This document shows, piece after piece, positions 3,837 to 17,147 of a stretch of DNA of 21,913 nt (position 1 is its first letter; every line of letters begins with the position of its first letter). The notes below the pieces were generated by a model. That model saw nothing but the letters and a program-made list of their open reading frames with translations. It did no database searches and was not told where the DNA came from. The stretch lies in IMG/VR virus record IMGVR_UViG_3300030328_005092, positions 1 through 21,913 of that record; one strand, 5' to 3'. Position numbers and translations under genes: made by a program. This stretch comes from a virus.

Positions 3837-4184
3837 TTAGTTATTTAGACGCATTTTCTGATAAGGTATGCCACGTAACGATTGTATCTCTTCATTAGTC
3901 ACTATATGTAACTGTCCTATCACTTCTTCCCATGTATATTGTCTAATTTGACCCCAGTGAAAATTTAATCCTCTAAATCCCCATTGGAATATATTAGTAA
4001 CTGCTACTAGGGGAAATTCATCATATTCTATATTAGGAGTTTTGGGTTGATAGACAAACGTATAATATTTACCTGGTTCAGGAACTAATTCTGTTTCGGT
4101 GAGTACTTCGAGGATTTCTAACATCATATCATCAGGAGATTCACCACCTATTAAATTATCTTTTATTTCTGTAATTCTATTCAT
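3837..4184 (-). CDS. Conserved hypothetical protein in the baseplate/head cluster
   Basis: This 115-aa protein has no assigned function. Its core (~40-85) reads YYTFVYQPKT...YDEFPLVAV...GFRGLNFHWGQIRQYTW. I associate this style of FPLV...GFxGLNFHW motif with structural proteins of marine T4-like phages, but I cannot name a fold. It has no signal peptide or membrane segment. It lies between gp4 and gp48 on the minus strand. Its ATG shares one base with the gp4 stop (TAATG arrangement), so translation is probably coupled to gp4. A virion or assembly role is inferred from position only. The gp48 late-promoter box is embedded in its final codons. Confidence 0.75.
   Translation of the reverse strand: MNRITEIKDNLIGGESPDDMMLEILEVLTETELVPEPGKYYTFVYQPKTPNIEYDEFPLVAVTNIFQWGFRGLNFHWGQIRQYTWEEVIGQLHIVTNEEIQSLRGIPYQKMRLNN
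3842..3849 (-). promoter_or_regulatory. Late-promoter box TCTAAATA before gp48
   Basis: On the minus strand this reads TCTAAATA, 7 of 8 bases of the T4 late box TATAAATA. It ends 26 nt before the gp48 ATG, within the last codons of the 115-aa gene. The identical octamer occurs twice more at 4621-4661 in promoter position, which strengthens the call. Confidence 0.55.
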
Positions 4185-4621
4185 TATTTAATTCCTAGTT
4201 CGTTCTCTGTTAAGACTTTAAATTCTACCATTCTATCTTTACAATATTCTGATGCTGCTTTCCATTTTGCTTGGTTCTTTGCATATTCACATACTTCGTA
4301 GATATATCCTTTTGTTTTCTTTTTTTGAGGTTTAGGTTCTATACACTGTTTTTTAGGTTTTATCTCAATCACATATTTTTTAACTTGTCCTGTACTTTCT
4401 TTTACTTTTATATAAAAATCTGGATAATATCTATGACGTTTACCATCAATAGGAGATGTATAAGGTATAAAGAATTCTTCACTTCCCCATTCTAAAATAT
4501 TTTGATTACTATCACAATATTTCATGAATTTTAGTTCCCATAAAGAACGGTAAATTATATTCCTATAATCACCCACATACTTCTTAGGAATGCTTGGTCT
4601 AAATTTTCCTTTATAAGCCAT
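4184..4621 (-). CDS. 4: gp4 head completion protein, PD-(D/E)xK nuclease-like
   Basis: This 145-aa protein (T4 gp4 is 150 aa) matches the head-completion family from end to end. The N-terminus has IIYRSLWELKFMKYCDSN followed by LEWGSEEFFIPY, closely matching T4 (IIYRSLWERKFM...LEWGSEE). Next come YPDFYIKV (~66-73) and YVIEIKPKKQ (~83-92), which give the PD...ExK catalytic signature of restriction-like nucleases. T4 gp4 is needed to finish filled heads before tail joining and has been reported to act as a nuclease. It is the first gene of the leftward cluster. No clear Shine-Dalgarno precedes its ATG. A late-promoter box lies 33 nt upstream. A head gene inside a baseplate cluster differs from the T4 map. 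Confidence 0.93.
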   Translation of the reverse strand: MAYKGKFRPSIPKKYVGDYRNIIYRSLWELKFMKYCDSNQNILEWGSEEFFIPYTSPIDGKRHRYYPDFYIKVKESTGQVKKYVIEIKPKKQCIEPKPQKKKTKGYIYEVCEYAKNQAKWKAASEYCKDRMVEFKVLTENELGIK

Positions 4622-4628
4622 CTAAATA
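4621..4628 (+). promoter_or_regulatory. Late-promoter box TCTAAATA for gp54 (right half of divergent pair)
   Basis: This TCTAAATA matches the T4 late box TATAAATA at 7 of 8 positions. It ends 33 nt before the gp54 GTG. Its first base is also the first base of the gp4 start codon on the other strand. Confidence 0.55.
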
Positions 4629-4653
4629 GAAATAATATAAGACTCGTATAAGG

Positions 4654-4661
4654 TATTTAGA
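4654..4661 (-). promoter_or_regulatory. Late-promoter box TCTAAATA for gp4 (left half of divergent pair)
   Basis: Read on the minus strand this is TCTAAATA, forming an 8-bp inverted repeat with the box at 4621-4628 around a 25-bp spacer. It ends 32 nt before the gp4 ATG and directly abuts the gp54 start codon, mirroring the opposite box. Confidence 0.55.
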
Positions 4662-5285
4662 GTGGCAGGAATAGTTCAAAGAATTACAATGGATACTGTC
4701 AAGGAAAAACTTGGCAAACTTTCATTAACCAATCAATATCAGGTTAATTTTTCAACCTTTAACCAAACAATATTAGATTATTTTCAGAGAATAGGTTTAA
4801 ATGATTCTCAGAATTTTATATCTAGAAATATGGGACTTATGTGTTCTGATGCATCATTACCTGCTAGTGCATTTGCAACTGGTGAAGTAAAGGATAATTT
4901 TATGGGTATTCCTCAAGAGTTTGCTCATACTCGTTTATATACTGATATTGATTTTACTTTTTATGTGGATGAGAATTATGATTCATTAAATATTTTTGAA
5001 AGATGGATGGATTATATTTCTAGTGGTTCTCAGGCAACGGATGGTGTTAGTGTACAGGATAAAGGATTCTATAGAAGATTTAGATACCCTGATGATTATA
5101 AAGTCAATTCAATGACAATTACTAAATTTGAAAAAAATCTTACTGGAAAAAATTTAATGTATGAATTTAAGAATGCATTTCCTAAGGCTATTACATCTTT
5201 ACCTGTTACTTATGGTCCTGCAGATCTTTTAAGAGTAACTGTTAGCTTTAACTATGATAGATATGTTGTTTCTAGGCATGGTTAG
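4662..5285 (+). CDS. 54: gp54-like baseplate tail-tube initiator
   Basis: This 207-aa protein has the layout of the gp54/gp19 tail-tube superfamily as seen in cyanophages: NQYQVNFSTF near the start, then GLMCSDASLPASAFATGEVK, FAHTRLYTDIDFTFYVDENY, FERWMDYISSG, YRRFRYPDDYK and a closing strand VTVSFNYDRYVV. In T4, gp54 binds gp48 and nucleates tail-tube (gp19) polymerisation. The neighbouring gp48 favours gp54 over a true gp19, but the families are homologous and the protein is shorter than T4 gp54 (320 aa), so a tube-like protein cannot be excluded. The GTG start keeps the conserved N-terminus and has AAGGT (4650-4654) upstream. An internal ATG at 4689 would cut nine residues. Confidence 0.8.
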   Translation: MAGIVQRITMDTVKEKLGKLSLTNQYQVNFSTFNQTILDYFQRIGLNDSQNFISRNMGLMCSDASLPASAFATGEVKDNFMGIPQEFAHTRLYTDIDFTFYVDENYDSLNIFERWMDYISSGSQATDGVSVQDKGFYRRFRYPDDYKVNSMTITKFEKNLTGKNLMYEFKNAFPKAITSLPVTYGPADLLRVTVSFNYDRYVVSRHG

Positions 5286-5294
5286 AATTGCCCC

Positions 5295-5302
5295 TATAAA
5301 TA
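5295..5302 (+). promoter_or_regulatory. Perfect T4-type late promoter TATAAATA before gp26
   Basis: An exact TATAAATA lies in the 41-bp gap between gp54 and gp26, 24 nt before the gp26 ATG. This is one of the few non-coding gaps in the cluster, and the position fits a late promoter recognised by gp55-type sigma with gp33 and gp45. Confidence 0.7.
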
Positions 5303-5326
5303 AATTTACTGAAGTGTGAAAACATT

Positions 5327-6046
5327 ATGCCATTACCAAAAATTAATACTCCAACTTATGAGTTGATTTTACCATCTAATAATAAGAAAATTAAATACCG
5401 TCCTTTTTTAGTAAGAGAAGAAAAAATACTTATTCTTGCATTGGAGAGTGAAGATACTGAACAGATAACAAATGCTGTAGTTGAGATATTATCAGATTGT
5501 ATCCTTACAAAAGGAGTAGATGTTACTAAACTTGCTACTTTTGATATTGAATACTTATTCTTGAATGTTCGTTCAAAATCAGTTGGTGAGACTGTTGAAG
5601 TTAATATAGTTTGTCCTGATGATGAAAAAACATCTGTTGAGGTAAGTATTGATCTTGATAGTATTAAGGTTCAAAAAACTAGAGGACATAAGACTACAGT
5701 TAAATTAGATGATCAATATTCTATGAAACTTAAATATCCTGCTCTTAATGAATTTATTGGTAATAATTTTGATACTGCGGATGTGAATGTTGTTGACAAA
5801 TCTTTAGACATGATTACATCATGTATTGAGATGATTTATGATGAAGAGGAGAGTTGGGCTGCATCTGATTCAACTAAACAGGAATTAGAGGAATTTATAG
5901 AGCAATTGAACAGTAAACAGTTCAAATCAATTGAAAAATTCTTTGATACAATGCCTAAACTTTCTCATACAGTTAAGGTAATAAATCCAACTACTGAGGT
6001 TGAATCTGAAGTTGTATTGGAGGGACTAGCAAGTTTTTTCACCTGA
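5327..6046 (+). CDS. 26: gp26 baseplate hub assembly protein
   Basis: This 239-aa protein matches the T4 gp26 baseplate family (T4 gp26 is 208 aa). The N-terminus has YELILPSNNKKIKYRPFLVREEK, then FDIEYLFLNVRSKSVGETVE (T4: FEIEYIFIKLRSKSVGEEVD), and later SMKLKYPALNEF. T4 gp26 is needed to assemble the central hub together with gp51. The protein ends LASFFT at a TGA. The codons for the two Phe sit on a T TTT TTC heptamer with frameshift-stimulating features around it. A -1 shift there would extend the chain into the next small ORF. The gene has a perfect late promoter 24 nt upstream and only a weak Shine-Dalgarno. Confidence 0.9.
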   Translation: MPLPKINTPTYELILPSNNKKIKYRPFLVREEKILILALESEDTEQITNAVVEILSDCILTKGVDVTKLATFDIEYLFLNVRSKSVGETVEVNIVCPDDEKTSVEVSIDLDSIKVQKTRGHKTTVKLDDQYSMKLKYPALNEFIGNNFDTADVNVVDKSLDMITSCIEMIYDEEESWAASDSTKQELEEFIEQLNSKQFKSIEKFFDTMPKLSHTVKVINPTTEVESEVVLEGLASFFT

Positions 6047-6060
6047 GTATGGCTCATACT
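6019..6060 (+). promoter_or_regulatory. Candidate programmed -1 ribosomal frameshift element (gp26/57-codon ORF)
   Basis: Four elements occur in order. A Shine-Dalgarno-like GGAGGG (6019-6024) lies 9 nt upstream of the slip site. A canonical heptamer T TTT TTC (6034-6040) is in gp26 phase. A 5-nt spacer follows (6041-6045). Then comes a hairpin AGTATG-GCT-CATACT (6046-6060) with a perfect 6-bp stem. The gp26 stop is at 6044-6046. After a -1 slip, reading continues His-Leu-Ser and then the whole 57-codon ORF, giving a 298-aa fusion. The spacing resembles the E. coli dnaX signal. Confidence 0.65.
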
Positions 6061-6222
6061 AATCTTGAGTCATACTATAAGATAAATTTTGCCTTGGTTC
6101 AGCATCATAAATACTCTTTAACAGAGATTGAAAATATGATTCCTTGGGAAAAGGAAGTCTATGTAACTTTATTGAAACAGTACATTGAGGAAGAAAATTT
6201 AAAGAAAGAACAAAGTGGCTAA
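6049..6222 (+). CDS. 57-aa protein in gp51 position; probably also made as gp26 -1 frameshift extension
   Basis: The ORF from ATG 6049 encodes MAHTNLESYYKINFALVQHH followed by KYSLTEIENMIPWEKEVYVT and a Glu/Lys-rich helix. It is helical, with IPWEKEVYVTLLKQYI as the best motif. That style (xPWExxxYxxLL) is familiar from tail-assembly chaperone second frames, where a small Pro-Trp-Glu segment precedes a helix. In T4 the gene next to gp26 is gp51, a 249-aa hub assembly catalyst. This is far shorter, so orthology is unproven. It starts 2 nt after the gp26 stop, in the -1 frame, with no proper Shine-Dalgarno, and its ATG is inside a hairpin. Both facts favour frameshift expression or reinitiation. 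The end overlaps the next GTG by 8 nt. Confidence 0.75.
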   Translation: MAHTNLESYYKINFALVQHHKYSLTEIENMIPWEKEVYVTLLKQYIEEENLKKEQSG

Positions 6223-7375
6223 CGTAACAATTTCAGGTACACCAAATACAAATAAAGTAAATACCTCTAAATTTATGGGTTCTGCTTTTGCAGCAGGAAG
6301 TGCTTTGTCAAAAAGAGTTTCTAGCCAAGAAAAGAAACTTACTACACTTAAAAATATAGTAAAACTCCAAAAACTGAATATTGAGGACTTAAAACATAAA
6401 GAATCTGGAGAGGAAGGTTTAAAAGAAGAATTACAAGAAACAAATAGTGTTATACAAGATATTGGTAATGCATTAGCATTAGATTTTTCTAATAGAATTA
6501 CAGAACAGAAAGCTGCTAATAAAAATTTAAAATTACAGGTAGATCAAGATAAAAAAGCAGATGCAGAAGAAAAATTAGAATCTAGGAAAATAAAAGGATT
6601 AGGTGGTCTTTTTGGTAAAGGAAAGGGAGATGAAGAAAAAGGTGGTGGATTAAAACTAGGTGGTATATTTGAAGCAATTAAACTTATTGGTACTGGTATT
6701 GCAATTAATGCATTATGGCCTAAGTTAGAAAAAATATTCGAATGGTCAATAGAAAATTTTGATAAGATATTAATTGTTGCAGGTGGAATATTTGCAGGTG
6801 GAGCATTACTTTCTTTAGCTGGTGCATTAGGTTCGTTAATTACCATTGCTAAATTTTTAGCAAGTCCTCTTGCAATAGGTGCATTATTGTTCACCTTTGG
6901 TGCATGGGGTGGTATGTTTATGGGTACAAGCACCACAACTCAGAGAATTGATAAAAGTGTAGAAACACTGGGTAAAAAAGCTACCATTGCATTATTAAAA
7001 GGACAATTAGAACAGATAGAATCTGGTAAGGCTCCGTTTGATCCTATGGATCCCTTTAACTGGGAGAAGAAAAAGGAGATATTAGAACAAATTGAAAGAT
7101 TAGAAAAAGGTACAATTAAAGGGAAAAAAGTAAAAGGTCCAAAAATTGATGCAGATCTAATAATAGAGGAGTCATTGAATGATAAGGATTTATTTGAGCA
7201 ACTTACTTCAGATACTGGTATTGATGTTAGTGAAATTACTTTAGATCCAAAATATATTAGTAATGGAGAAAAAGATGTTAACCTTAATGATACAACTGAA
7301 GTAGCATATCATTCTTCTGTAAATGATACTAATTCTTATATGTTTGAGACACCAAAATTACATGGGATAGGTTAA
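6215..7375 (+). CDS. Tape-measure/gp29-position structural protein with membrane-like segments
   Basis: This 386-aa protein belongs to no family I can name. Residues ~32-125 are helical and highly charged (LSKRVSSQEKKLTTLKNIVK and onward), likely coiled coil. A Gly/Lys-rich linker (~127-147) follows. Three hydrophobic segments come next: ~149-168 (IFEAIKLIGTGIAINALW), ~184-212 (ILIVAGGIFAGGALLSLAGA and onward) and ~214-236. The remainder is polar. Coiled coil plus internal hydrophobic helices directly after a gp26/frameshift cassette and before gp27 is what a short tape-measure protein looks like. T4 has gp29 near here. No sequence match to gp29 is evident. The GTG start overlaps the previous ORF. 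The first ATG would remove 20 residues. Confidence 0.8.
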   Translation: MANVTISGTPNTNKVNTSKFMGSAFAAGSALSKRVSSQEKKLTTLKNIVKLQKLNIEDLKHKESGEEGLKEELQETNSVIQDIGNALALDFSNRITEQKAANKNLKLQVDQDKKADAEEKLESRKIKGLGGLFGKGKGDEEKGGGLKLGGIFEAIKLIGTGIAINALWPKLEKIFEWSIENFDKILIVAGGIFAGGALLSLAGALGSLITIAKFLASPLAIGALLFTFGAWGGMFMGTSTTTQRIDKSVETLGKKATIALLKGQLEQIESGKAPFDPMDPFNWEKKKEILEQIERLEKGTIKGKKVKGPKIDADLIIEESLNDKDLFEQLTSDTGIDVSEITLDPKYISNGEKDVNLNDTTEVAYHSSVNDTNSYMFETPKLHGIG

Positions 7376-7379
7376 AGAG

Positions 7380-8414
7380 ATGCCATTACCAGCAGTAGCA
7401 GTAGGAATAGCGAAAGTAGGAGCCATTATTGGTAAAGGAGCAATGGCAGCAGGAAAGGGAATTGCTGCTGGTGCAAAGGCTGGTGCAAAGATTGGTTCTT
7501 CTGTTGCAAGAAGTGGTGCAAAGATTGGTTCTTCTGCTCTAAAAACTGGATCTCGCACCGTAAAGGGTAGTGCAAAAAGTGCTAAGAATTTAAAAATATC
7601 TGTACGAAAGATTAGGAATGTTCTTAATAAAAAAAATAAGAGATTATCTAATTTAAAAAAGATAAATGTAAGAGATCAGTTTAAATTAATTTCACAACAG
7701 AAAAAACGACTTGCAGCAAAAAAATTAAAATCTCCCTTATCAGCACTACTTGCACCTCTTGGTGGAATAGCAAAAATTGGTTCTAAGATATTTGATGCTT
7801 TCAAATTTCTTTTACTTGGAATTGGATTTACTGCTTTATGGGAAAATGCTTCTAAAATAGCAGAAGTTTTGAGTAATTTTTATAAACGTTTAGTTTCTTG
7901 GTGGGATAATTCAGAAAATAGACAACTGCGTAAGAATATTGCTGATGAATTTGAGAAAATTGATATGGATAAGTTAGTGAAACAATTTAAACAATTGAAA
8001 GAATTGTCTGATGAATTACGAGTAAAACTTGCTCCTATCTTTGAAAAAGATAATGTGCTACTTAATAAAAAAGGAGAAATAGATCCTAAAACTTTTATAG
8101 AAGATGAAGATAATCCAGATGAGACGTTAAGATTTGGTGAGACATTTAGTAGTGAAGACGATCTTTCTGTTGGTCCTACTGATGATCAAGAGAGAATTGA
8201 TACTTATTATGTTGATCAGAATGGACATGTAAGATTGAAAGAAGATAATTCTAGACCTTGGGGATCTAGATTTATTAATAAAGAAGGTCTAGAGAGAAAA
8301 GATTATACTCCAATTAGTTCAATAAAAAAGGATGATAAAATTAGTCTATTAAATAGTAATGGTTCAAAGAAAAATAAAGTGATTATTGTAAAACAACCTA
8401 TAATTTATACTTAA
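7380..8414 (+). CDS. Second tape-measure/hub-like structural protein, possible paralogue of the preceding gene
   Basis: This 344-aa protein starts with ~60 Ala/Gly/Lys-rich residues (VGAIIGKGAMAAGKGIAAGA and onward) containing a repeated AKIGSS unit. A very basic segment follows (~65-118). Next is a hydrophobic stretch ~123-156, IFDAFKFLLLGIGFTALW, which resembles IFEAIKLIGTGIAINALW in the preceding protein. Then come a coiled-coil-like region (~160-225) and an acidic, polar C-terminal third. The shared basic or coiled N-terminus and hydrophobic ALW motif suggest the two genes are diverged duplicates working in the tail tube or hub. Function is inferred from position next to gp27. An AAAGAG lies just before the ATG, 4 nt after the previous stop. 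Confidence 0.78.
   Translation: MPLPAVAVGIAKVGAIIGKGAMAAGKGIAAGAKAGAKIGSSVARSGAKIGSSALKTGSRTVKGSAKSAKNLKISVRKIRNVLNKKNKRLSNLKKINVRDQFKLISQQKKRLAAKKLKSPLSALLAPLGGIAKIGSKIFDAFKFLLLGIGFTALWENASKIAEVLSNFYKRLVSWWDNSENRQLRKNIADEFEKIDMDKLVKQFKQLKELSDELRVKLAPIFEKDNVLLNKKGEIDPKTFIEDEDNPDETLRFGETFSSEDDLSVGPTDDQERIDTYYVDQNGHVRLKEDNSRPWGSRFINKEGLERKDYTPISSIKKDDKISLLNSNGSKKNKVIIVKQPIIYT
7481..7536 (+). repeat. 23-bp direct repeat, period 33 bp
   Basis: Positions 7481-7503 and 7514-7536 are identical and encode the repeated GAKIGSS unit of the Ala/Gly-rich N-terminus. Perfect identity at the DNA level indicates a recent local duplication. Confidence 0.8.
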
Positions 8415-8415
8415 A

Positions 8416-9669
8416 ATGGAAGGTAGTGCGGCACGTGCATCCATCTACGAAAAGATGGTAATTAATAAAGATGGTAAGACTGCTAATCTTATAGGTAAAA
8501 CTGTAAGTTTTGATTACTATGAGAGTTTATATTCTCCAGAAATAACTGGTTCTTTAATATTCTTTGATGCTGGTGCATCTATTGAAGCAGGAAAAGAACA
8601 GGATACGCAGGAAAGAAAGGGAAGTATTAAAAATTCATTACCTATTACTGGATCTGAAGAGGTACAAGTAAAAATTAGATCTAAGTCTGGGGTTTTAAGT
8701 ATTCCTTTTACAGTTAATGGTGCTCCAATTTTAAGTCAAGAATCACAACGTGAAGGTGTTTATCTATCACTTAAATCTAAATCAACTTATGAAAATTTAG
8801 ATATTAAAGATCCATCTAAGAAGTATACGGGAAGGATTAGTGATACTGTTAAAAAAATACTTCAAGATCTTAATATATCAAAAATGCAAGTAGACCCTAC
8901 ACAAAATAATTATGATTTTTATTCTTCAGGAAAAGGTGGATTAGATATAATAAATGATTTGTGTAGAAGATCTATTCCTGAAAATGGTGATCCTGCTTAT
9001 TTCTTTTATGAAACACAAGATGGATTTAACTTTAGAGGTATAGATAATCTTATTTCTGAAGATCCAGTAGAGACTTATACTTATGTTGCTGGTCTTAAGG
9101 CAAATCTTGATAATGATCAGAATGATTATAGGATTGTATTACCACCTAATATTTTAAAAGATCAGGATGTGGAAAAGGCATTAAAATATTATAGTAGTCG
9201 TAATGTATTCTTTAATCCTCAGAATCTTAAAGTTGAAGAACCTAAGATATATTCACTAAAAGAAGATAAGGTTAAAAAACTTTTAGGAAAGAAAGTTCCA
9301 TTTGAAGATAAGATAAAGAATTATAGTACAACTAATTATCAGGTTTTGGATATAGGTAGTACTGATCCTGATAGTTTAACACCTAATAATGATCCACGAG
9401 AATGGCAAGCAAAATCTCCTATGAGATATAACCTTCTTCATTCTCAACTGGTTGAGATTCAGGTTCCTTGTAATTTAAAATTACGAGCTGGTAATATAAT
9501 TAGAGTTGAAGTTCAAAGACAAGGTGAAGTAGCAATGGGTGGTGTTGATCAACAACAAAGTGGTAATTATTTAATTCTACATCTCTGCCATCATTTTGAT
9601 ACTGAACGATCTTTTACTTCAATGACTTTATGCCGTGATGCTTACGGACTCTACACTAATAACAAATAG
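8416..9669 (+). CDS. 27: gp27-like baseplate hub protein
   Basis: This 417-aa protein (T4 gp27 is 391 aa) has the profile of the gp27/VgrG hub family as found in cyanophages. An N-terminal beta domain contains LIGKTVSFDYYESLYSPEIT and GSLIFFDAG. A middle helical part has SDTVKKILQDLNISKMQVDP and GGLDIINDLCRR, followed by YFFYETQDGFNFRGID. The C-terminal barrel has MRYNLLHSQLVEIQVPCNLK, LRAGNIIRVEV and LCHHFDTERSFTSMTLCRD. The AYFFYET...F.FR and L.AG..I.V patterns recur across gp27, Mu gp44 and VgrG proteins. In T4 the gp27 trimer is the socket that holds gp5 and docks the tube. Here it directly precedes the gp5-like gene. No Shine-Dalgarno is visible, so coupling to upstream translation is likely. 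Confidence 0.85.
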   Translation: MEGSAARASIYEKMVINKDGKTANLIGKTVSFDYYESLYSPEITGSLIFFDAGASIEAGKEQDTQERKGSIKNSLPITGSEEVQVKIRSKSGVLSIPFTVNGAPILSQESQREGVYLSLKSKSTYENLDIKDPSKKYTGRISDTVKKILQDLNISKMQVDPTQNNYDFYSSGKGGLDIINDLCRRSIPENGDPAYFFYETQDGFNFRGIDNLISEDPVETYTYVAGLKANLDNDQNDYRIVLPPNILKDQDVEKALKYYSSRNVFFNPQNLKVEEPKIYSLKEDKVKKLLGKKVPFEDKIKNYSTTNYQVLDIGSTDPDSLTPNNDPREWQAKSPMRYNLLHSQLVEIQVPCNLKLRAGNIIRVEVQRQGEVAMGGVDQQQSGNYLILHLCHHFDTERSFTSMTLCRDAYGLYTNNK

Positions 9670-9671
9670 AT

Positions 9672-10979
9672 ATGAGTGATACTAATACTACTACATTTTT
9701 TGGAAAAGACGGACTCCATCCTTTTATAGGAAAGATCGTTAAGTTTGATGCACAGAAAAATTTGGTTCAAGGTCAGTCTTGGGGGTGGAGATATAAAGTC
9801 CGTATGATAGGAGATTTCTCAGAAAAGGATAGTGTGGATGATGCACAGGTTTATACTGCTTCTACATTGTTACCTCCAACTAGTGGAACAGGTGGAGGTG
9901 GTAGAACTTCGACTGTTAAATTAGTACAGGGTGATATGGTTTTTGGTCTATTTTTAGCACCTAATAAAGGATTCCCCGTTATCTTAGCAGCTTTTCCTAG
10001 AACAAAAGATACAAAAGATACTGGAGGTAAGTTTGGTATTAATAGTGGATTTTTTGGAAAATTACTAAAAGGATTAACTGAAGGTCAAGAATATTCTGGT
10101 CAAGATCAGATGGTTACACCTAAAGTAAGAGAGCAAGGAGAGAAAGGTGGTGGTAAAACAAAAGCTGTTCCTGAGGAAAAATTAGGTGATATTAAAGACG
10201 GACAAAATTCAGATGAGAATGCAGTGGATGCATTACCTGAACCAAAAACTCCATTACTGCGAAGTGCTTTTGAGTTTTTTACTGGTCAAGAGTTAGAAAA
10301 GGATGTTCCTATGAAGGATGCTATTGTGAATCAACTTGAAAAGAATTTTCCTAATATATCTAATATTCCAGGTACTTTAAAGGGTATAGCAAATGATGAG
10401 GAAATACAGAAAAAGATTGGATATCAAGCTGGAAAATTGAAAAAAATAGGAGATGAGTTTCTTAAATCTAATGAAGTAAAAAATATTCGTAATGATTTGG
10501 AAATTTTATTTTCAAATCCCAATGCTAAAGGAAATCCATTAGGACTAGGAAATCCGTTAATAGATCCAAAAGATGCAGCAAAAGATAAAGAGCAGAAAAG
10601 ATTGGATAAAATACTGGATAATGAAAATGCAAACTGGAGGAGTAATTATTCTAGTTATGAAGCTACAGGAAATGTTGTTGATGACAACGCAGAACCACAA
10701 GATATTCATAGTATAGCTAATGGTTCTGTTATCAGCTTTATTAGCTATGCTCATGGTCTATTGGATACGTATAGAACAAAATTTAATGCATTAAAATATT
10801 TCGAACAAAATCCAAATGATCCGACTATTGGTGGACGTTATAATGCAAATCAGGGACCAACTTTGGTTGTAAGGCATTTCAATACTGCAAAGAAAAAACT
10901 GATACGGATGAGGGATGAAAACCCTAAAGTTATTGCTGCTATGAGCTCATCTGCTAGAAATTTTATTAATTCACTATAA
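9672..10979 (+). CDS. 5: gp5-like baseplate hub OB-fold protein lacking lysozyme and beta-helix domains
   Basis: This 435-aa protein has an N-terminal OB-fold domain (~15-112) comparable to T4 gp5N: FIGKIVKFDA, WRYKVRMIGDFSEKD, then LVQGDMVFGLFLAPNKGFPV followed by ILAAFPR, paralleling T4 FVGVVEDRMDP and GTRVYGHFLD...NGIVLG. T4 gp5 continues with a lysozyme and a C-terminal triple-stranded beta-helix. Here neither is present. The rest is polar, Lys/Glu-rich and mostly helical, with no catalytic motif I can identify. It would sit on the gp27 trimer as the hub centre. A beta-helix protein is encoded separately at 12887. The start is 2 nt after the gp27 stop. The last codons contain the late promoter of the next gene. 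Confidence 0.8.
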   Translation: MSDTNTTTFFGKDGLHPFIGKIVKFDAQKNLVQGQSWGWRYKVRMIGDFSEKDSVDDAQVYTASTLLPPTSGTGGGGRTSTVKLVQGDMVFGLFLAPNKGFPVILAAFPRTKDTKDTGGKFGINSGFFGKLLKGLTEGQEYSGQDQMVTPKVREQGEKGGGKTKAVPEEKLGDIKDGQNSDENAVDALPEPKTPLLRSAFEFFTGQELEKDVPMKDAIVNQLEKNFPNISNIPGTLKGIANDEEIQKKIGYQAGKLKKIGDEFLKSNEVKNIRNDLEILFSNPNAKGNPLGLGNPLIDPKDAAKDKEQKRLDKILDNENANWRSNYSSYEATGNVVDDNAEPQDIHSIANGSVISFISYAHGLLDTYRTKFNALKYFEQNPNDPTIGGRYNANQGPTLVVRHFNTAKKKLIRMRDENPKVIAAMSSSARNFINSL

Positions 10980-10982
10980 ATA
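10975..10982 (+). promoter_or_regulatory. Perfect T4-type late promoter TATAAATA before the 624-aa gene
   Basis: An exact TATAAATA overlaps the TAA stop of the gp5-like gene and ends 27 nt before the next ATG. The 30-bp gap it opens into also carries AGGAG (10992-10996). Its position matches the box before gp26. Confidence 0.7.
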
Positions 10983-11009
10983 ATATATACCAGGAGACTA
11001 CAATACATA

Positions 11010-12884
11010 ATGGCGACTAAAGTTAACGAGAAGCAGGAAAAGATTTTTATTCCAGCTACACCACCATCTTCTACTAGTCTTAATAGAAGACAAATTAGAG
11101 CTTATAAATCTCTTATTCAAGATAATCCTCTTAGTGAACAATGGCAGGACAAAATTAAAGAAATTCAAAAAGCATATCCTGCTCGTCTTGGAGGTATAAA
11201 ACCATTAACTTCAGAGCAAATTAATGCATTGTCTGAGGAAGAATATGAGGCTCGTGTTAATAGAATATCACAATATAATGCAATAGAAAATCCTGATGTT
11301 AAACCAGTATCTATAACTAGTGGAATGAAAATTATTACTGCAAATCCTTGCAAGAGTAATTTCTTTGATGATGTAGAAACTGAATTGGATAATTTTCTTA
11401 AGTTAGCAACTAGGGTCGATAATTTTGCTCTTGATCTTCCTGGTGAAATAAAAAATGTAGCAAAATTAATTAACACTTCATCTAAGGAATTTGTTACTAA
11501 AATTGGGAATGCACTTTCAGATTCAATGATTGGTTGGGTTAAAGATGGATTGGATGGAGTAGCAACAAAAATATTCAGTTCATTTTCTAAGTTTAATATA
11601 GCACTTCCAAAAGTTATTAATGCACAATCAGCTTTAATCAATCCAATCACAAAGTTATTCGGATCATTAGATTGTTTATCTGCTAAAGTAAGTGGTTCAC
11701 TACAAGGTTCTATTGAGGATATGTTAACTGGAATGGTGAAAAATGTATTGAATGGTGCTGCTTGTGCTGCTCAACAATTTATGGGTGCTTTAACTCAAAA
11801 AATTACAGGAATGATTGATAAGTTTGTTAGTCCTTTTACGTCTCCTTTAAGCAAAATCTTTGGAGGTGGTGGACTATTTGGTAAAGTAAGTGGTGTAAAG
11901 AATTTTATTGGTAATGTTAAAAATGGATTTAGTTTATTGGGTAAACTTAGAGATCCTTTTGGTTGTAAACCTCCAAAACCAAAATGTAAACCTGATGCGA
12001 TAACAGTTGATAAAGGTACTGGAGAGACTAAGAGTGGTGCTGAACAACAAGGAATTTTAGATAAAGTATTTGAGGGTGCTAATAATGCAATGACTGGACT
12101 TGAAAATACAAAGAAAGGAATTGTAAGTGGTATTACAAGTTCAATAAGTAATTTTGAAGAAGAATATGGACAATGGGAAATATTTGGTACTAAGGTTGGT
12201 GAAGCAACAGATCATGGATTAGGTACTGATTGTTATACTGGAAATATATTCAAGTGCGGTTTCCCTAAAGTTAAATTCTTTGGTGGAGATGGTGTGGGTG
12301 CTGCAGGAAAAGTTCTTCTTGGGAATTTTATAGATCGAATTGATTATAATGATATTTTTGCTGATGTTAAAAGTACTGCTGGTATTCTTGGTGTTGAAGT
12401 AACTGATCCTGGTGAAGGATATAGTGAAGAACCACTTGTAGAATTTACTGATAGTTGTGATCAAGGATATGGTGCTTTTGGTAAGGTAATTATTGATAAA
12501 AATGTAAATTCTCCTACTTATGGGCAAGTAGTGGACGTTGTTATAACTAGTGAGGGTGAAAATTATCCTATTGGTGAGACAAATGATCAAAGTCAGTTAT
12601 ATATTAGTAAGATTTTAATAGAAAATCCTGGAAAGGGATATGAAAATGCTTCAATAGAAGATGAATGTTTAACACTTAATGTTGAGGACGGAAGATGTGT
12701 TAGTGTTACTATCACTTGCCAGAAACCTTACAGCACTACACCAAGAATAGTAATTAAAAATCCTGGTACTGGTGCAGTATTACGTCCTATTATGTCACTA
12801 ACTAAGAATGAAACTCAGGAATCTCCAGTTTTACAGACTGTGGTTGATTGTGTGGGTGACTTCCCCATTGCAGGAGAGGATTAA
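11010..12884 (+). CDS. 624-aa structural protein of unknown function between hub and spike genes
   Basis: I do not recognise a family. The N-terminal ~110 residues are polar and helical. Residues ~125-310 are amphipathic or hydrophobic helices rich in Ala, Gly, Phe and Ile (MIDKFVSPFTSPLSKIFGGG), resembling a hub or membrane-active region. A short Cys-flanked Pro/Lys linker follows (CKPPKPKC, ~320). From ~455 the protein becomes beta-rich, with repeated turns DPGEGYSEEPLVEFTD, NPGKGYENAS and NPGTGAVLRPIM. These GxGY-type beta repeats occur in cyanophage fibre and virion proteins. The protein is unusually Cys-rich for this window (about 14). It has its own perfect late promoter. The next start is 2 nt downstream, so it is probably produced with the beta-helix protein, perhaps as its adaptor (inference). 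Confidence 0.8.
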   Translation: MATKVNEKQEKIFIPATPPSSTSLNRRQIRAYKSLIQDNPLSEQWQDKIKEIQKAYPARLGGIKPLTSEQINALSEEEYEARVNRISQYNAIENPDVKPVSITSGMKIITANPCKSNFFDDVETELDNFLKLATRVDNFALDLPGEIKNVAKLINTSSKEFVTKIGNALSDSMIGWVKDGLDGVATKIFSSFSKFNIALPKVINAQSALINPITKLFGSLDCLSAKVSGSLQGSIEDMLTGMVKNVLNGAACAAQQFMGALTQKITGMIDKFVSPFTSPLSKIFGGGGLFGKVSGVKNFIGNVKNGFSLLGKLRDPFGCKPPKPKCKPDAITVDKGTGETKSGAEQQGILDKVFEGANNAMTGLENTKKGIVSGITSSISNFEEEYGQWEIFGTKVGEATDHGLGTDCYTGNIFKCGFPKVKFFGGDGVGAAGKVLLGNFIDRIDYNDIFADVKSTAGILGVEVTDPGEGYSEEPLVEFTDSCDQGYGAFGKVIIDKNVNSPTYGQVVDVVITSEGENYPIGETNDQSQLYISKILIENPGKGYENASIEDECLTLNVEDGRCVSVTITCQKPYSTTPRIVIKNPGTGAVLRPIMSLTKNETQESPVLQTVVDCVGDFPIAGED

Positions 12885-12886
12885 TT

Positions 12887-13525
12887 ATGACCCAAGAGAA
12901 TCGTACTTGCGAAATAATTAATCAAAAATTAATAATTGAATCTGGGTCTGAAGCAATTGGACTACCTGGAAAGACTGCATATATTATTGAATCTCAAACT
13001 GAGGATGAAGTTCATTATAATCAGAGTTTGCATGAGGGTAGTGGTTTATCACGAATTTATGCCGAAAAAACACTACAGATAGAGGCAGGAGTTAAAAATA
13101 AACGTGCTGAAAAGAGTCTTGAATTAATATCTCATAATGGTGATATTGATCTTGTTTCACGAAAAACTGGAAATATTGGTCTTAGAGCTGCAGGAGGTAC
13201 TATTTGTTTAGAAGCTGATAATATCATATTAAAAGCACAAACTGAGATTACTATTGGAAATAAAAATAGAACTACTGATCAAATTAATCTTAATGCAAAA
13301 AAGATTCAAGTCTCACGTAATAATGGAAATTTGGGGGATTGGATGAAAATTAGTGATAGGTACAAATCGTTTATGAGTTCTTTTGTTACTAATAAAATAG
13401 GTAATATAGGGGCATCTGCTATTCCAGGAGGTCTTGGATCCGTTGCTGGAGCTGTTGCTACTGCCTATGGTGGTCCTGTTGCAGGTGCTGTAGCAGAATC
13501 AGCAGTCGATTCACTTACAAGTTAG
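12887..13525 (+). CDS. Stand-alone gp5C-like beta-helix spike protein
   Basis: This 212-aa protein has residues ~10-130 forming short alternating beta strands with regular spacing, such as KTLQIEAG, KSLELISHNGDIDLVSRK, GNIGLRAAGG, TICLEADNIILKAQTEITIG and INLNAKKIQV. This is the pattern of the triple-stranded beta-helix at the T4 gp5 C-terminus and VgrG spikes (strings like GDIxLxAxGGxIxLxA). Residues ~132-170 are polar. The last ~40 residues are Gly/Ala-rich and hydrophobic (AIPGGLGSVAGAVATAYGGP), which is unusual for a spike. The gp5-like OB protein upstream lacks a beta-helix, so I infer this supplies the membrane-piercing spike as a separate chain. AGGAGAGGA about 6 nt upstream is a good ribosome binding site. 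Confidence 0.72.
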   Translation: MTQENRTCEIINQKLIIESGSEAIGLPGKTAYIIESQTEDEVHYNQSLHEGSGLSRIYAEKTLQIEAGVKNKRAEKSLELISHNGDIDLVSRKTGNIGLRAAGGTICLEADNIILKAQTEITIGNKNRTTDQINLNAKKIQVSRNNGNLGDWMKISDRYKSFMSSFVTNKIGNIGASAIPGGLGSVAGAVATAYGGPVAGAVAESAVDSLTS

Positions 13526-13538
13526 GGGGTATATTCTA

Positions 13539-16500
13539 GTGAGTTACGGAAATCAAAATACCTGGAGTGGAGATTCAATATTTGAAGATGTTTACATTTA
13601 TGGAACACTTCATTATGACCAGTTGGGAGATTTTGAGAATTTAGAAGTAGGAACCTTATATGTACGTGAGAATTCATATTTTGGTGGTATTGCCACCTTT
13701 ATGGATGATATTGATCTAAGAGGTGAATTAAATACAGAATATTTAACAGTTGTACAGAGATTAAATGTTGGTGTTGGTGGATCAATTCTTCATGCATCAG
13801 TAAGATATGATGATCCTGCTAGTGGTAGAGTTGGTGTAGGTAACTCTACTCCTTTAGAAGGAATGAGACTACAGGTTGGTGGTCCCAATACTATGGGTAC
13901 TGGTGAAGCTGAAAGTACAGCTTTTGTAGTAACAGGTTTAGGAACAGTTGGAATAGGAACTACTAGACCTGGTAGTTTTGCAGGATATGACCCTTCTGTT
14001 GCTGGTGATGGTATTGTAAAACTGGACGTAAACGGTAGTATAAAGATTGAAAGAAATATCTATGATTCTGCTGATTCAGCAGGTGCTAATGGATATTATT
14101 TGAATAGGGATGCACATGGTATTAGGTGGATAGAAGCATCTCCTATTGCAATGGAGGGAATATATGTTCAAGATGAGGGTGTTTATCTTCCAACTGTTGG
14201 TATTGCTCAAACATTCTCTACTATTAATTTCTGGGGTACAAATAGTCTTGGTGTAGGTACTGATAACGTAATTGCTATACCTGATCCAGATAATCCTACA
14301 GAAATTGCAAGAATACAAACTCAAGATTTATGGGGATATACAACAACAGGTGATGTTAATAGTCCAATCTATAGGATGACTAAGGTTGGTATTAAGAATA
14401 ACAATCCATCCAAGGAATTAGATGTAACTGGAGAAGTTCATGTTACTGGAAACGTTGATTTTGATTCTGTATTAAATGTAGATGGTGATACATTCTTAAA
14501 TGGTGCGTTAGATGTTGATGGTGCCACTACACTTAATAACTCATTAGATGTAGATGGTGGTACAACACTTAATAGTACACTAGATGTAGATGGTGTAGCG
14601 ACATTTAATGATTCAACAGATGCTACAAGTACAACATCAGGATCTGTTCAGATTGATGGTGGTGTTGGAATTCAATTGAAATTATATGTTGGTAGTGATA
14701 CTAAAATTGAGTCAGTAGTAGAATCTACTGGTATAAGTGATGGTGCTTTAGTAGTTAGTGGTGGTGTAGGTATTGCTAAGAGATTAAATGTGGGTGGGGA
14801 TACTAAGATTGATGGAACTACTCAATCTTCTACTAAGGACACTGGTGCATTAATAGTTGATGGTGGTGCTGGAATTGAAAAGAATCTTAATGTTGGTGAA
14901 GATGCCAAGATTCTTGGAGTTACTCAATCTACAAACTGTACTACAGGTGCTTTAGTAGTTAGTGGTGGTGTAGGTATTGCTAAGAACTTAAATGTTTGTG
15001 GTGATGCTGAGATTTTTGGAACTACTCAATCAACTACCAAGGATACTGGTGCATTAGTAGTTGATGGTGGTGTTGGTATTGAGAAGAGATTAAATGTAGG
15101 TGGTGATACAAAGATTGATGGAACTACCCAATCAACTGATAAAGATACTGGTGCTCTTATAGTTGATGGTGGTGCTGGAATTGAGAAGAATCTTAATATT
15201 GGTGGTGATTTAAAAGTAGATTCGACAACAGCATCTACTGATTGTACTACTGGTTCTGGTATCTTTGGTGGTGGTGTTGGTATTCAGGGAGATTTGAATG
15301 TATGTGGTGATGAACATATTTTTGGAACTACAGAATCAAATGATAAGGATACTGGTGCACTTGTAGTTGAAGGTGGAACTGGTATTGAAAAGAACTTGAA
15401 TGTTGGTGGTAATGCAAAAATTATTGGTACTTTAGAGTTAGAAAACTCTATTATTGATAAGTTAAACAGTGTTGGTTATGATGCTAGTCGTACAAAAAAT
15501 GATTATAGATTATCTGCTGTTGGTAGTGGTGTATCATGGAGACCTTCTGGTGTAGATACTGATAATGCGATTTGGGTTACTGTTGATGGTGATGATACTA
15601 ATACTGGATTATTAGAAGGTGATGCAAAGAGAACTGTTGGTGCTGCTGCATCCATAGCAAAAGAAGGAGATACTATTATTATTCGTTCTGGTACTTATAC
15701 TGAGAATAATCCAATTGGATTAAGAACTGATGTTTCAGTATCTGGTGAAGATTTAAGACTTGTAACTATTATTCCTCAGAACAGAACTAAGGATGTCTTC
15801 CATGTTAGAAGAGGATGTTTGATACAGAATCTTAACTTCTCTGGTCCTCCTGATGATGGTCAAGGTGGAGTTTCATATGCTCATACTGACTGTGGAGCAG
15901 CTGCTTTCCCACCATTAGATGTTCCTGCTGCTACTGGATATGCTCATACTGGTCCTGCTAATGAGGGTGCTACTGGTAGATGGAAATCTCCATATGTTAG
16001 AAACTGTACTAACTTTATGACTGGTAGTATTGGTATGAAGATAGATGGTAATCATGCCAATGCTGATTTTAGCGGTACTAATAATCTAGGACAAGACTTT
16101 AAATCATTTGTTTGTGATGCGTTTACACAATACAATCAGAATGGTATTGGTGTATCAATTACAAACAATGCATATGCTCAGTTAGTTTCTATCTTTACTA
16201 TTGGTTGTGATATTGCAATTTATTGTGATACTGGTGGACAGTGTGACTTAACTAACTCTAACTCATCATTTGGTAATTATGGTCTTTATGCTGATGGAGT
16301 TGGTGCTGTAGAATTTACAGGAACAACTATTGGAGATGTTGCTGCAGATAATGATGTCTTTGAGATCAATAATTTGAAGGATATTCAAGACAGATATAGA
16401 AAACCTTTTGATGGACAGGGATTATACTTTAAGATTAATTTGTCAGATTATACAGATATAACTGGTAGTGGTATTATAAATGCACCATTAAAATTAGTTA

Positions 16501-17147
16501 GATCTATTACGGTTGTAAATGGTGGTAATCCAGGAGATTATAATTCTGCAGCACCTCCAGTTATTACAGTCCCTGCTCCATTAGGTCCAGAAGGTATTCA
16601 GGCAGAGTTTTCTGCAAATGTTAGTGCTGCTGGAACAATTACATCTGTTGATGTTATATCTAGTGGTAGAAATTTCTTACCAAATCAATCATTTACTGTT
16701 GATATTACTGGTACAGGTGCTGCTCAACTTGAAGCAGATACCGATCCTATTTTATATACTGTAGAAGTTGCTACGGATCCAACTGATGATGTTGGTTTAA
16801 CAACTGTAACGTTTGATCAGTTTATTCCTTATGCTGTAAATAGTGGAACAGATGTTGAACTTGTAAGAATCAGTAGAATTATTACCAGTTCTCATTCATT
16901 TGAATATATCGGTGCTGGTACGGATATAAATAAAGCGAACCCCTTCCAAGGTGGCGAACCTATTCCTGCAAACGAAGTTGTTGCAATAAATGGAGGTCAA
17001 GTTCCATTTACTAGCACAGATCAAAAAGGTAACTTTAGAATTGGTGATGGTTTAACAGTTGATCAAACAACATCTACAATACGAGGAAGAGACTTTAACC
17101 GAGCAATTCAAGCACAATTAACACCTCTAATATTAGCGTTGAGATAA
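13539..17147 (+). CDS. Large repeat-containing tail fibre/adhesin-like structural protein
   Basis: This 1202-aa protein is likely a virion fibre. The N-terminal ~300 residues are beta-rich with phrases typical of cyanophage fibres (GRVGVGNSTPLEGMRLQVGG, VGIGTTRPGSF). Residues 312-359 are four 12-aa LDVDGxTTLNxx repeats. Residues 360-631 are eight 34-aa repeats. From ~670 (WVTVDGDDTNTG, EGDTIIIRSGTYTENNPIGL) it has the DUF1565-like right-handed beta-helix pattern. It ends with GNFRIGDGLTVDQTTSTIRG and a helical QLTPLILALR. It is trimeric by analogy with other fibres. The GTG start is preceded by AGGGGG (13524-13529) at 9-nt spacing. No receptor-binding site can be pointed to. It could instead be a baseplate-periphery protein of the gp10/gp12 type. 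Confidence 0.85.
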   Translation: MSYGNQNTWSGDSIFEDVYIYGTLHYDQLGDFENLEVGTLYVRENSYFGGIATFMDDIDLRGELNTEYLTVVQRLNVGVGGSILHASVRYDDPASGRVGVGNSTPLEGMRLQVGGPNTMGTGEAESTAFVVTGLGTVGIGTTRPGSFAGYDPSVAGDGIVKLDVNGSIKIERNIYDSADSAGANGYYLNRDAHGIRWIEASPIAMEGIYVQDEGVYLPTVGIAQTFSTINFWGTNSLGVGTDNVIAIPDPDNPTEIARIQTQDLWGYTTTGDVNSPIYRMTKVGIKNNNPSKELDVTGEVHVTGNVDFDSVLNVDGDTFLNGALDVDGATTLNNSLDVDGGTTLNSTLDVDGVATFNDSTDATSTTSGSVQIDGGVGIQLKLYVGSDTKIESVVESTGISDGALVVSGGVGIAKRLNVGGDTKIDGTTQSSTKDTGALIVDGGAGIEKNLNVGEDAKILGVTQSTNCTTGALVVSGGVGIAKNLNVCGDAEIFGTTQSTTKDTGALVVDGGVGIEKRLNVGGDTKIDGTTQSTDKDTGALIVDGGAGIEKNLNIGGDLKVDSTTASTDCTTGSGIFGGGVGIQGDLNVCGDEHIFGTTESNDKDTGALVVEGGTGIEKNLNVGGNAKIIGTLELENSIIDKLNSVGYDASRTKNDYRLSAVGSGVSWRPSGVDTDNAIWVTVDGDDTNTGLLEGDAKRTVGAAASIAKEGDTIIIRSGTYTENNPIGLRTDVSVSGEDLRLVTIIPQNRTKDVFHVRRGCLIQNLNFSGPPDDGQGGVSYAHTDCGAAAFPPLDVPAATGYAHTGPANEGATGRWKSPYVRNCTNFMTGSIGMKIDGNHANADFSGTNNLGQDFKSFVCDAFTQYNQNGIGVSITNNAYAQLVSIFTIGCDIAIYCDTGGQCDLTNSNSSFGNYGLYADGVGAVEFTGTTIGDVAADNDVFEINNLKDIQDRYRKPFDGQGLYFKINLSDYTDITGSGIINAPLKLVRSITVVNGGNPGDYNSAAPPVITVPAPLGPEGIQAEFSANVSAAGTITSVDVISSGRNFLPNQSFTVDITGTGAAQLEADTDPILYTVEVATDPTDDVGLTTVTFDQFIPYAVNSGTDVELVRISRIITSSHSFEYIGAGTDINKANPFQGGEPIPANEVVAINGGQVPFTSTDQKGNFRIGDGLTVDQTTSTIRGRDFNRAIQAQLTPLILALR
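14472..14615 (+). repeat. Four tandem 36-bp coding repeats (12-aa LDVDGxTTLNxx)
   Basis: The codons from 14472 encode LNVDGDTFLNGA, LDVDGATTLNNS, LDVDGGTTLNST and LDVDGVATFNDS. The units are exactly in frame and directly abut the 102-bp repeat array. They are likely single beta-helix or beta-spiral turns. Confidence 0.9.
14616..15431 (+). repeat. Eight tandem 102-bp coding repeats (34 aa) with 306-bp higher-order unit
   Basis: Eight copies of exactly 34 codons start at 14616, 14718, 14820, 14922, 15024, 15126, 15228 and 15330. The consensus begins TQSTxKDTGALxVDGGxGIE and continues KNLNVGGDxKIxGT. Copies 3-4-5 and 6-7-8 form two versions of one 306-bp triplet. The first members share GALIVDGGAGIEKNLN. 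The middle members carry Cys at repeat positions 6 and 26. Copy 2 joins a copy-4-like first half to a copy-5-like second half. Confidence 0.93.

Follow-up and report, generated by a model that had tools for sequence, protein, structure and literature searches.

A putative three-protein central spike in T4-superfamily cyanophages, with gp5 divided between the OB domain and the body

In bacteriophage T4, gp5 (1k28) is produced as one precursor that is cleaved between the lysozyme and the beta-helix; its OB domain sits on gp27. In the mature particle, the OB-lysozyme part and the beta-helix are separate chains (PMC3004832, PMC7650644), and the spike is still bound after cleavage, in the form of the complex (gp27-gp5*-gp5C)3 (PMC3004832), which indicates that a non-covalent complex of this kind is workable. 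In the P-SSM2-type Kyanoviridae, the OB domain and the body form one chain (family PHROG 1922) that is encoded after gp27, has no lysozyme domain and is accompanied by a separate spike gene (family PHROG 3363). In Syn9, P-SSM4 and Mendera, gp5 consists of an OB domain and helices, with no lysozyme domain, and the C-terminal beta structure belongs to the same chain; Gp5_C and trimer-domain matches were obtained for Mendera gp5 and, weakly, for Syn9 gp5, and there is no spike-sized gene directly 3' of gp5 in Syn9 and P-SSM4. Splitting of a T4-type gp5 has been stated for the rhizobial phages Atu_ph04, phiM9 and vB_RleM_P10VF (PMC6630229).

Here we describe a virus locus from IMG/VR record IMGVR_UViG_3300030328_005092, available as a 21.9-kb fragment of 21,913 nt (hereinafter the window, meaning the whole stretch of DNA that was analyzed). 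The window resembles mature T4 in that the beta-helix spike is predicted to be a separate chain, but, in contrast to T4, the single cleaved precursor is replaced by three open reading frames with their own starts, without a lysozyme domain. We consider it probable, at roughly 0.8, that the products of these genes, here denoted a, b and c, make up the central spike complex of a T4-superfamily cyanophage in which gp5 is split in the linker between the OB domain and the body and the joint is non-covalent. The locus includes the following features:

6215..8414, + strand: two short genes (6215-7375 and 7380-8414) 5' of the gp27-like gene, at the position of the hydrolase in some relatives
8416..9669, + strand: gp27-like hub protein, 417 aa, directly 5' of a (PHROG 350 tail protein, E = 1e-74)
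9672..10979, + strand: protein a, predicted gp5 OB domain and clade-specific C-terminal tail, 435 aa (PHROG 1922; PDB OB profile)
9672..10004, + strand: OB domain of a, residues 1-111 (24-protein gp5 alignment)
10980..11009, + strand: a/b spacer of 30 nt with an AGGAG ribosome-binding-like sequence (sequence; 21 junctions compared)
11010..12884, + strand: protein b, predicted gp5 body, 624 aa (PHROG 1922; BFVD structure matches)
11043..11324, + strand: N-terminal helical domain of b, residues 12-105, specific to the split clade (profile; pLDDT 77-91 at residues 21-90)
12267..12809, + strand: C-terminal beta domain of b, residues 420-600 (AlphaFold2, pLDDT mostly 75-89)
12887..13525, + strand: protein c, predicted spike beta-helix, 212 aa (PHROG 3363; profile and model spike matches)

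The three open reading frames were recovered with the same boundaries as in the original prediction. The gene at 8416..9669 is presumably gp27, judging from its position and general knowledge; its placement relative to gp5 matches that in named cyanophages.

The original prediction held that the functions of gp5 are carried by separate genes and that the product of 9672-10979 adopts an OB fold. Both claims were borne out, although the break that it placed between hub and spike lies instead between the OB domain and the body, with PHROG 1922 split over a and b and the spike on c. Family-level similarity to PHROG 1922 (gp5) was detected for both the OB domain, in a (residues 2-180, profile positions 4-185, E = 1.2e-21), and the body, in b (profile positions 210-658, E = 1.6e-45); in the window, the two are not joined in one chain as they are in Kyanoviridae gp5. 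Together, a and b align along the single gp5, 670-752 aa in length, of S-SRM01, S-SKS1, P-SSM2, S-8S56 and S-CAM7. When an OB profile of 24 sequences was compared with PDB, the only matches were chains of T4-type gp5, 5 of 5 on the OB domain, with a best E-value of 9e-4 and T4 gp5 itself at about 0.09. In a Foldseek comparison of the b model with predicted viral structures (BFVD), the top four matches were cyanophage 'Baseplate hub + tail lysozyme' proteins, which lends structural support to b being gp5 material. Against PDB, the same model yielded nothing below E = 1e-3, and the b profile produced coiled-coil-type noise only; a T4 counterpart of b was not detected. By sequence similarity, a is the N-terminal OB part and b the remainder of the same Kyanoviridae gp5, so that the 624-aa protein, previously regarded as an unrelated gene, is the body that is fused to the OB domain in other cyanophages.

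The AlphaFold2 model of b has pLDDT 77-91 at residues 21-90. Past these residues, it consists of long helices modeled with middling confidence, then a stretch of low confidence (285-415) and, at 420-600, a beta domain. The long predicted helices, along with weak matches to tape-measure PHROGs (E about 3e-4), could be taken to mean that b originated independently, as an adaptor or a protein of tape-measure type that was recruited to a place between hub and spike. Such a scenario is extremely improbable given the PHROG 1922 match, the alignment of b along the fused gp5 of named phages, and the structural matches to cyanophage baseplate hub proteins; the PHROG 1922 match and the alignment refute an independent origin of b. 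A connector role is compatible with b being the gp5 body, and b may connect hub and spike.

Seven cysteines of b (C222, C252, C319, C408, C416, C483 and C614) are invariant in 34 fused and split gp5 bodies and could possibly be involved in metal binding or disulfides. The length of a varies from 199 to 445 aa among the relatives, and its tail past the OB domain, which is clade-specific and variable, between about 90 and more than 330 residues.

We surveyed related loci with profiles of gp27, the OB domain, the body and the spike, and inspected the gene arrangement at each locus. The OB/body split was found in 26 loci that represent 23 distinct contigs, the window and AG-345-L05 included, and the OB-body fusion in 51 loci; the loci were selected for resembling the window or P-SSM2, and these counts are not frequencies. 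The nearest named record, AG-345-L05 (Marine virus), has the same split, with a of 217 aa and b of 623 aa, and carries a psbA-type gene (PF00124), which fits a cyanophage; PMC6122165 lists the AG-345 plate with the extracellular sort gate. No second full gp5 was found in the 149 kb of AG-345-L05 that were searched, the window itself being a 21.9-kb fragment. On the gp27 tree, which is rooted at the midpoint only, the 23 split rows cluster together (support 100/100), and quick trees recover the split group as well, with SH-aLRT 97 for the OB domain and 92 for the body.

The junctions between a and b are 18-43 nt long. In the window, L008 and L025, and only in these among the 21 junctions compared, a and b share a frame and are separated by a single in-frame TAA, as would be the case if a and b were joined by stop-codon readthrough, or if the stop were a sequencing error, the mature gp5 still being fused. 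However, b is shifted in frame relative to a in 15 of the 21 junctions, two in-frame stops are present in 3 of the 21, b has its own start and a ribosome-binding-like sequence in most clade members, and the extra N-terminal domain of b is missing from fused gp5. Because the frames are shifted in most relatives, we reject both readthrough and sequencing error as very unlikely. When the window is compared with L008, every part of a, b and c has a dN/dS in the range of 0.36-0.54, which is compatible with functional genes, though not strikingly low.

With regard to the direction of change, the split could be ancestral, with the fused cyanophage gp5 having arisen by gene fusion; gp5 is split in T4-superfamily phages of rhizobia as well (PMC6630229), and midpoint rooting of the gp27 tree leaves room for this order of events. 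Nevertheless, the midpoint root has fused forms on either side (S-8S56 versus the rest, with long branches), and Syn9, P-SSM4, RN05-S, MED4-213 and Mendera all possess an OB domain and a helical body in one chain, making ancestral splitting rather unlikely. The reading that we favor is the opposite one, under which an OB-body fusion would have been broken in the interdomain linker.

A second, separate type of gp5 split was observed in the IMG/VR loci L087-L090, which make up a group of their own on the gp27 tree. In these loci, the OB domain and the first half of the body are encoded in one gene and the second half in a gene for a protein of 870-1207 aa; in L088, for example, the two genes are located at 3998-5500 and 5535-9104, and the second-half gene holds a PA14 domain.

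A helical domain of about 90 residues at the N-terminus of b is present in every complete split-clade b examined and, as judged by profile, in no fused gp5. PHROG and Pfam searches with this domain and with the tail of a gave weak, inconsistent matches only. From its position and conservation, we would guess that the domain docks on a, replacing the lost peptide linker. In the assembly that we propose, the OB trimer formed by a would sit on the gp27 hub, the body, b, would be docked non-covalently to a, and c would be the membrane-piercing beta-helix at the tip, with three copies of each protein presumably assembling as gp27-a-b-c. The N-terminal domain of b, perhaps together with the variable tail of a, would form the joint that takes the place of the peptide linker of other cyanophages. 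The adjacent a, b and c genes are probably cotranscribed, and the spike complex would require no proteolytic maturation. More broadly, we see about even odds that, across a clade of marine cyanophages, the middle of the spike has exchanged a covalent joint for a dedicated protein-protein joint, through fission of the linker and gain of a helical docking domain, resulting in a three-protein, cleavage-free spike.

Protein c matches the family PHROG 3363, whose function is unknown. In a comparison of a 28-protein profile of c-type sequences with PDB, spikes of contractile systems accounted for 4 of the 5 best matches (7aef, VgrG 8gra, All3320 7b5h and VgrG 6u9e; E = 0.004-0.09). The AlphaFold2 monomer of c has pLDDT 83-92 over residues 31-140, and its structural neighbors are enriched in VgrG, T4 gp5, P2 gpV and eCIS/R-pyocin spikes; the single scores are weak, as expected from modeling a single chain of a triple beta-helix on its own. 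The claim that the 212-aa protein is a beta-helix agrees with these results: c is predicted to be the spike beta-helix and is the only one of the three proteins in which the beta-helix of gp5 was detected, by individually weak scores and a monomer model.

With a separate spike gene, no T4-type cleavage would be needed to free the spike. The stand-alone spike is not the peculiarity that it had been taken for. A gene for a protein of 174-212 aa is located directly 3' of the fused gp5 gene in S-SRM01, S-SKS1, P-SSM2, S-8S56 and S-CAM7; the products of all five align with c, three of them were scanned and fall into PHROG 3363, and a c-type gene is also found 3' of gp5 in most of the IMG/VR relatives. 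A search for PAAR proteins found none in AG-345-L05 and the other split-clade records covered; in Syn9, it gave one sub-threshold match. In MED4-213 (L102:6001-9686), a 938-aa OB-body gp5 is followed by a separate 289-aa protein that, unlike the PHROG 3363 spike, resembles the C-terminal trimerization domain of T4 gp5 (E = 0.0013).

The absence of a lysozyme, another component of the original prediction, was confirmed, in that none of the three proteins has a Pfam or PHROG match to a lysozyme domain (PF00959 included); 'tail lysozyme', the name given to the PHROG, is a label of the gp5 family only. PF00959 is also absent from the 149-kb AG-345-L05 record and from all gp5 proteins scanned, including those of Syn9, P-SSM4, RN05-S, MED4-213 and Mendera. 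The gp5 of Mendera, a Stenotrophomonas phage, combines the OB domain, helices and a Gp5_C beta-helix in one chain without a lysozyme, so the absence of this domain is not tied to cyanobacterial hosts, contrary to the suggested link with the cyanobacterial wall. Given the separate spike gene and the lysozyme-free gp5 of the named cyanophages, both features are ordinary for the group. What distinguishes the split clade is the OB/body split together with the new helical domain at the split.

In several relatives, the gene just 5' of gp27 encodes a wall-hydrolase domain, namely M23 in S-SRM01 and RN05-S, Amidase_5/CHAP in S-CAM7 and VanY in MED4-213; in the L088 contig, a gene 5' of gp27 contains a lysozyme domain. 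The pre-gp27 genes of S-SRM01 and S-CAM7 are similar at the N-terminus (PHROG 37890) and differ in their catalytic domains, which suggests domain swapping. The coordinates of pre-gp27 genes with such domains are L001:2729-4636 (M23), L007:1948-3843 (Amidase_5/CHAP), L096:121-2271 (lysozyme), L101:869-3685 (M23) and L102:1140-3020 (VanY). The genes at 6215-7375 and 7380-8414 of the window gave no Pfam or PHROG match, and no hydrolase domain was found in them or in the two short genes at the same place in AG-345-L05. A search of the split clade with PF00959, PF01551, PF01464 and PF05257 retrieved no hydrolase, which is compatible with one of an unrecognized type. This raises the question of the protein by which these phages breach cyanobacterial peptidoglycan. 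These results also correct an annotation habit, inasmuch as cyanophage gp5 is often named 'tail lysozyme' and no lysozyme domain was detectable in any of those scanned.

Compared with the described systems, the window is closest to the P-SSM2-type Kyanoviridae in its domains, their order, the place after gp27, the separate PHROG 3363 spike gene and the lack of lysozyme; it differs in that the OB domain and the body are not in one chain and in the N-terminal domain of b. The rhizobial T4-superfamily phages are similar in having gp5 on separate genes, a likeness seen in annotation and gene positions. In IC12, a 304-aa OB-containing protein follows the tail protein, and in phiM9 the gene annotated as the gp5 C-terminal domain, and as LysM-like, adjoins the terminase gene, whereas the window has three adjacent genes. 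In the literature searched, with partial journal coverage, a split gp5 is stated for rhizobial phages only; a search on cyanophage gp5 and lysozyme, with the same partial coverage, turned up neither the three-gene layout nor its fixation in a clade nor the accompanying domain. A split gp5 as such is already known, and the three-gene cyanophage layout with the added domain of b is a new variant. It shows that there is more than one point at which the central spike of the T4 superfamily can be divided and yet be maintained by selection, and the split clade provides a natural test of whether the linkage between the OB domain and the spike must be covalent.

Downstream of c, the window encodes, at 13539-17147, a tail-fibre-like protein of 1202 aa with several near-repeats of the type TGALVVDGGVGIEKNLNVGGDTKI.
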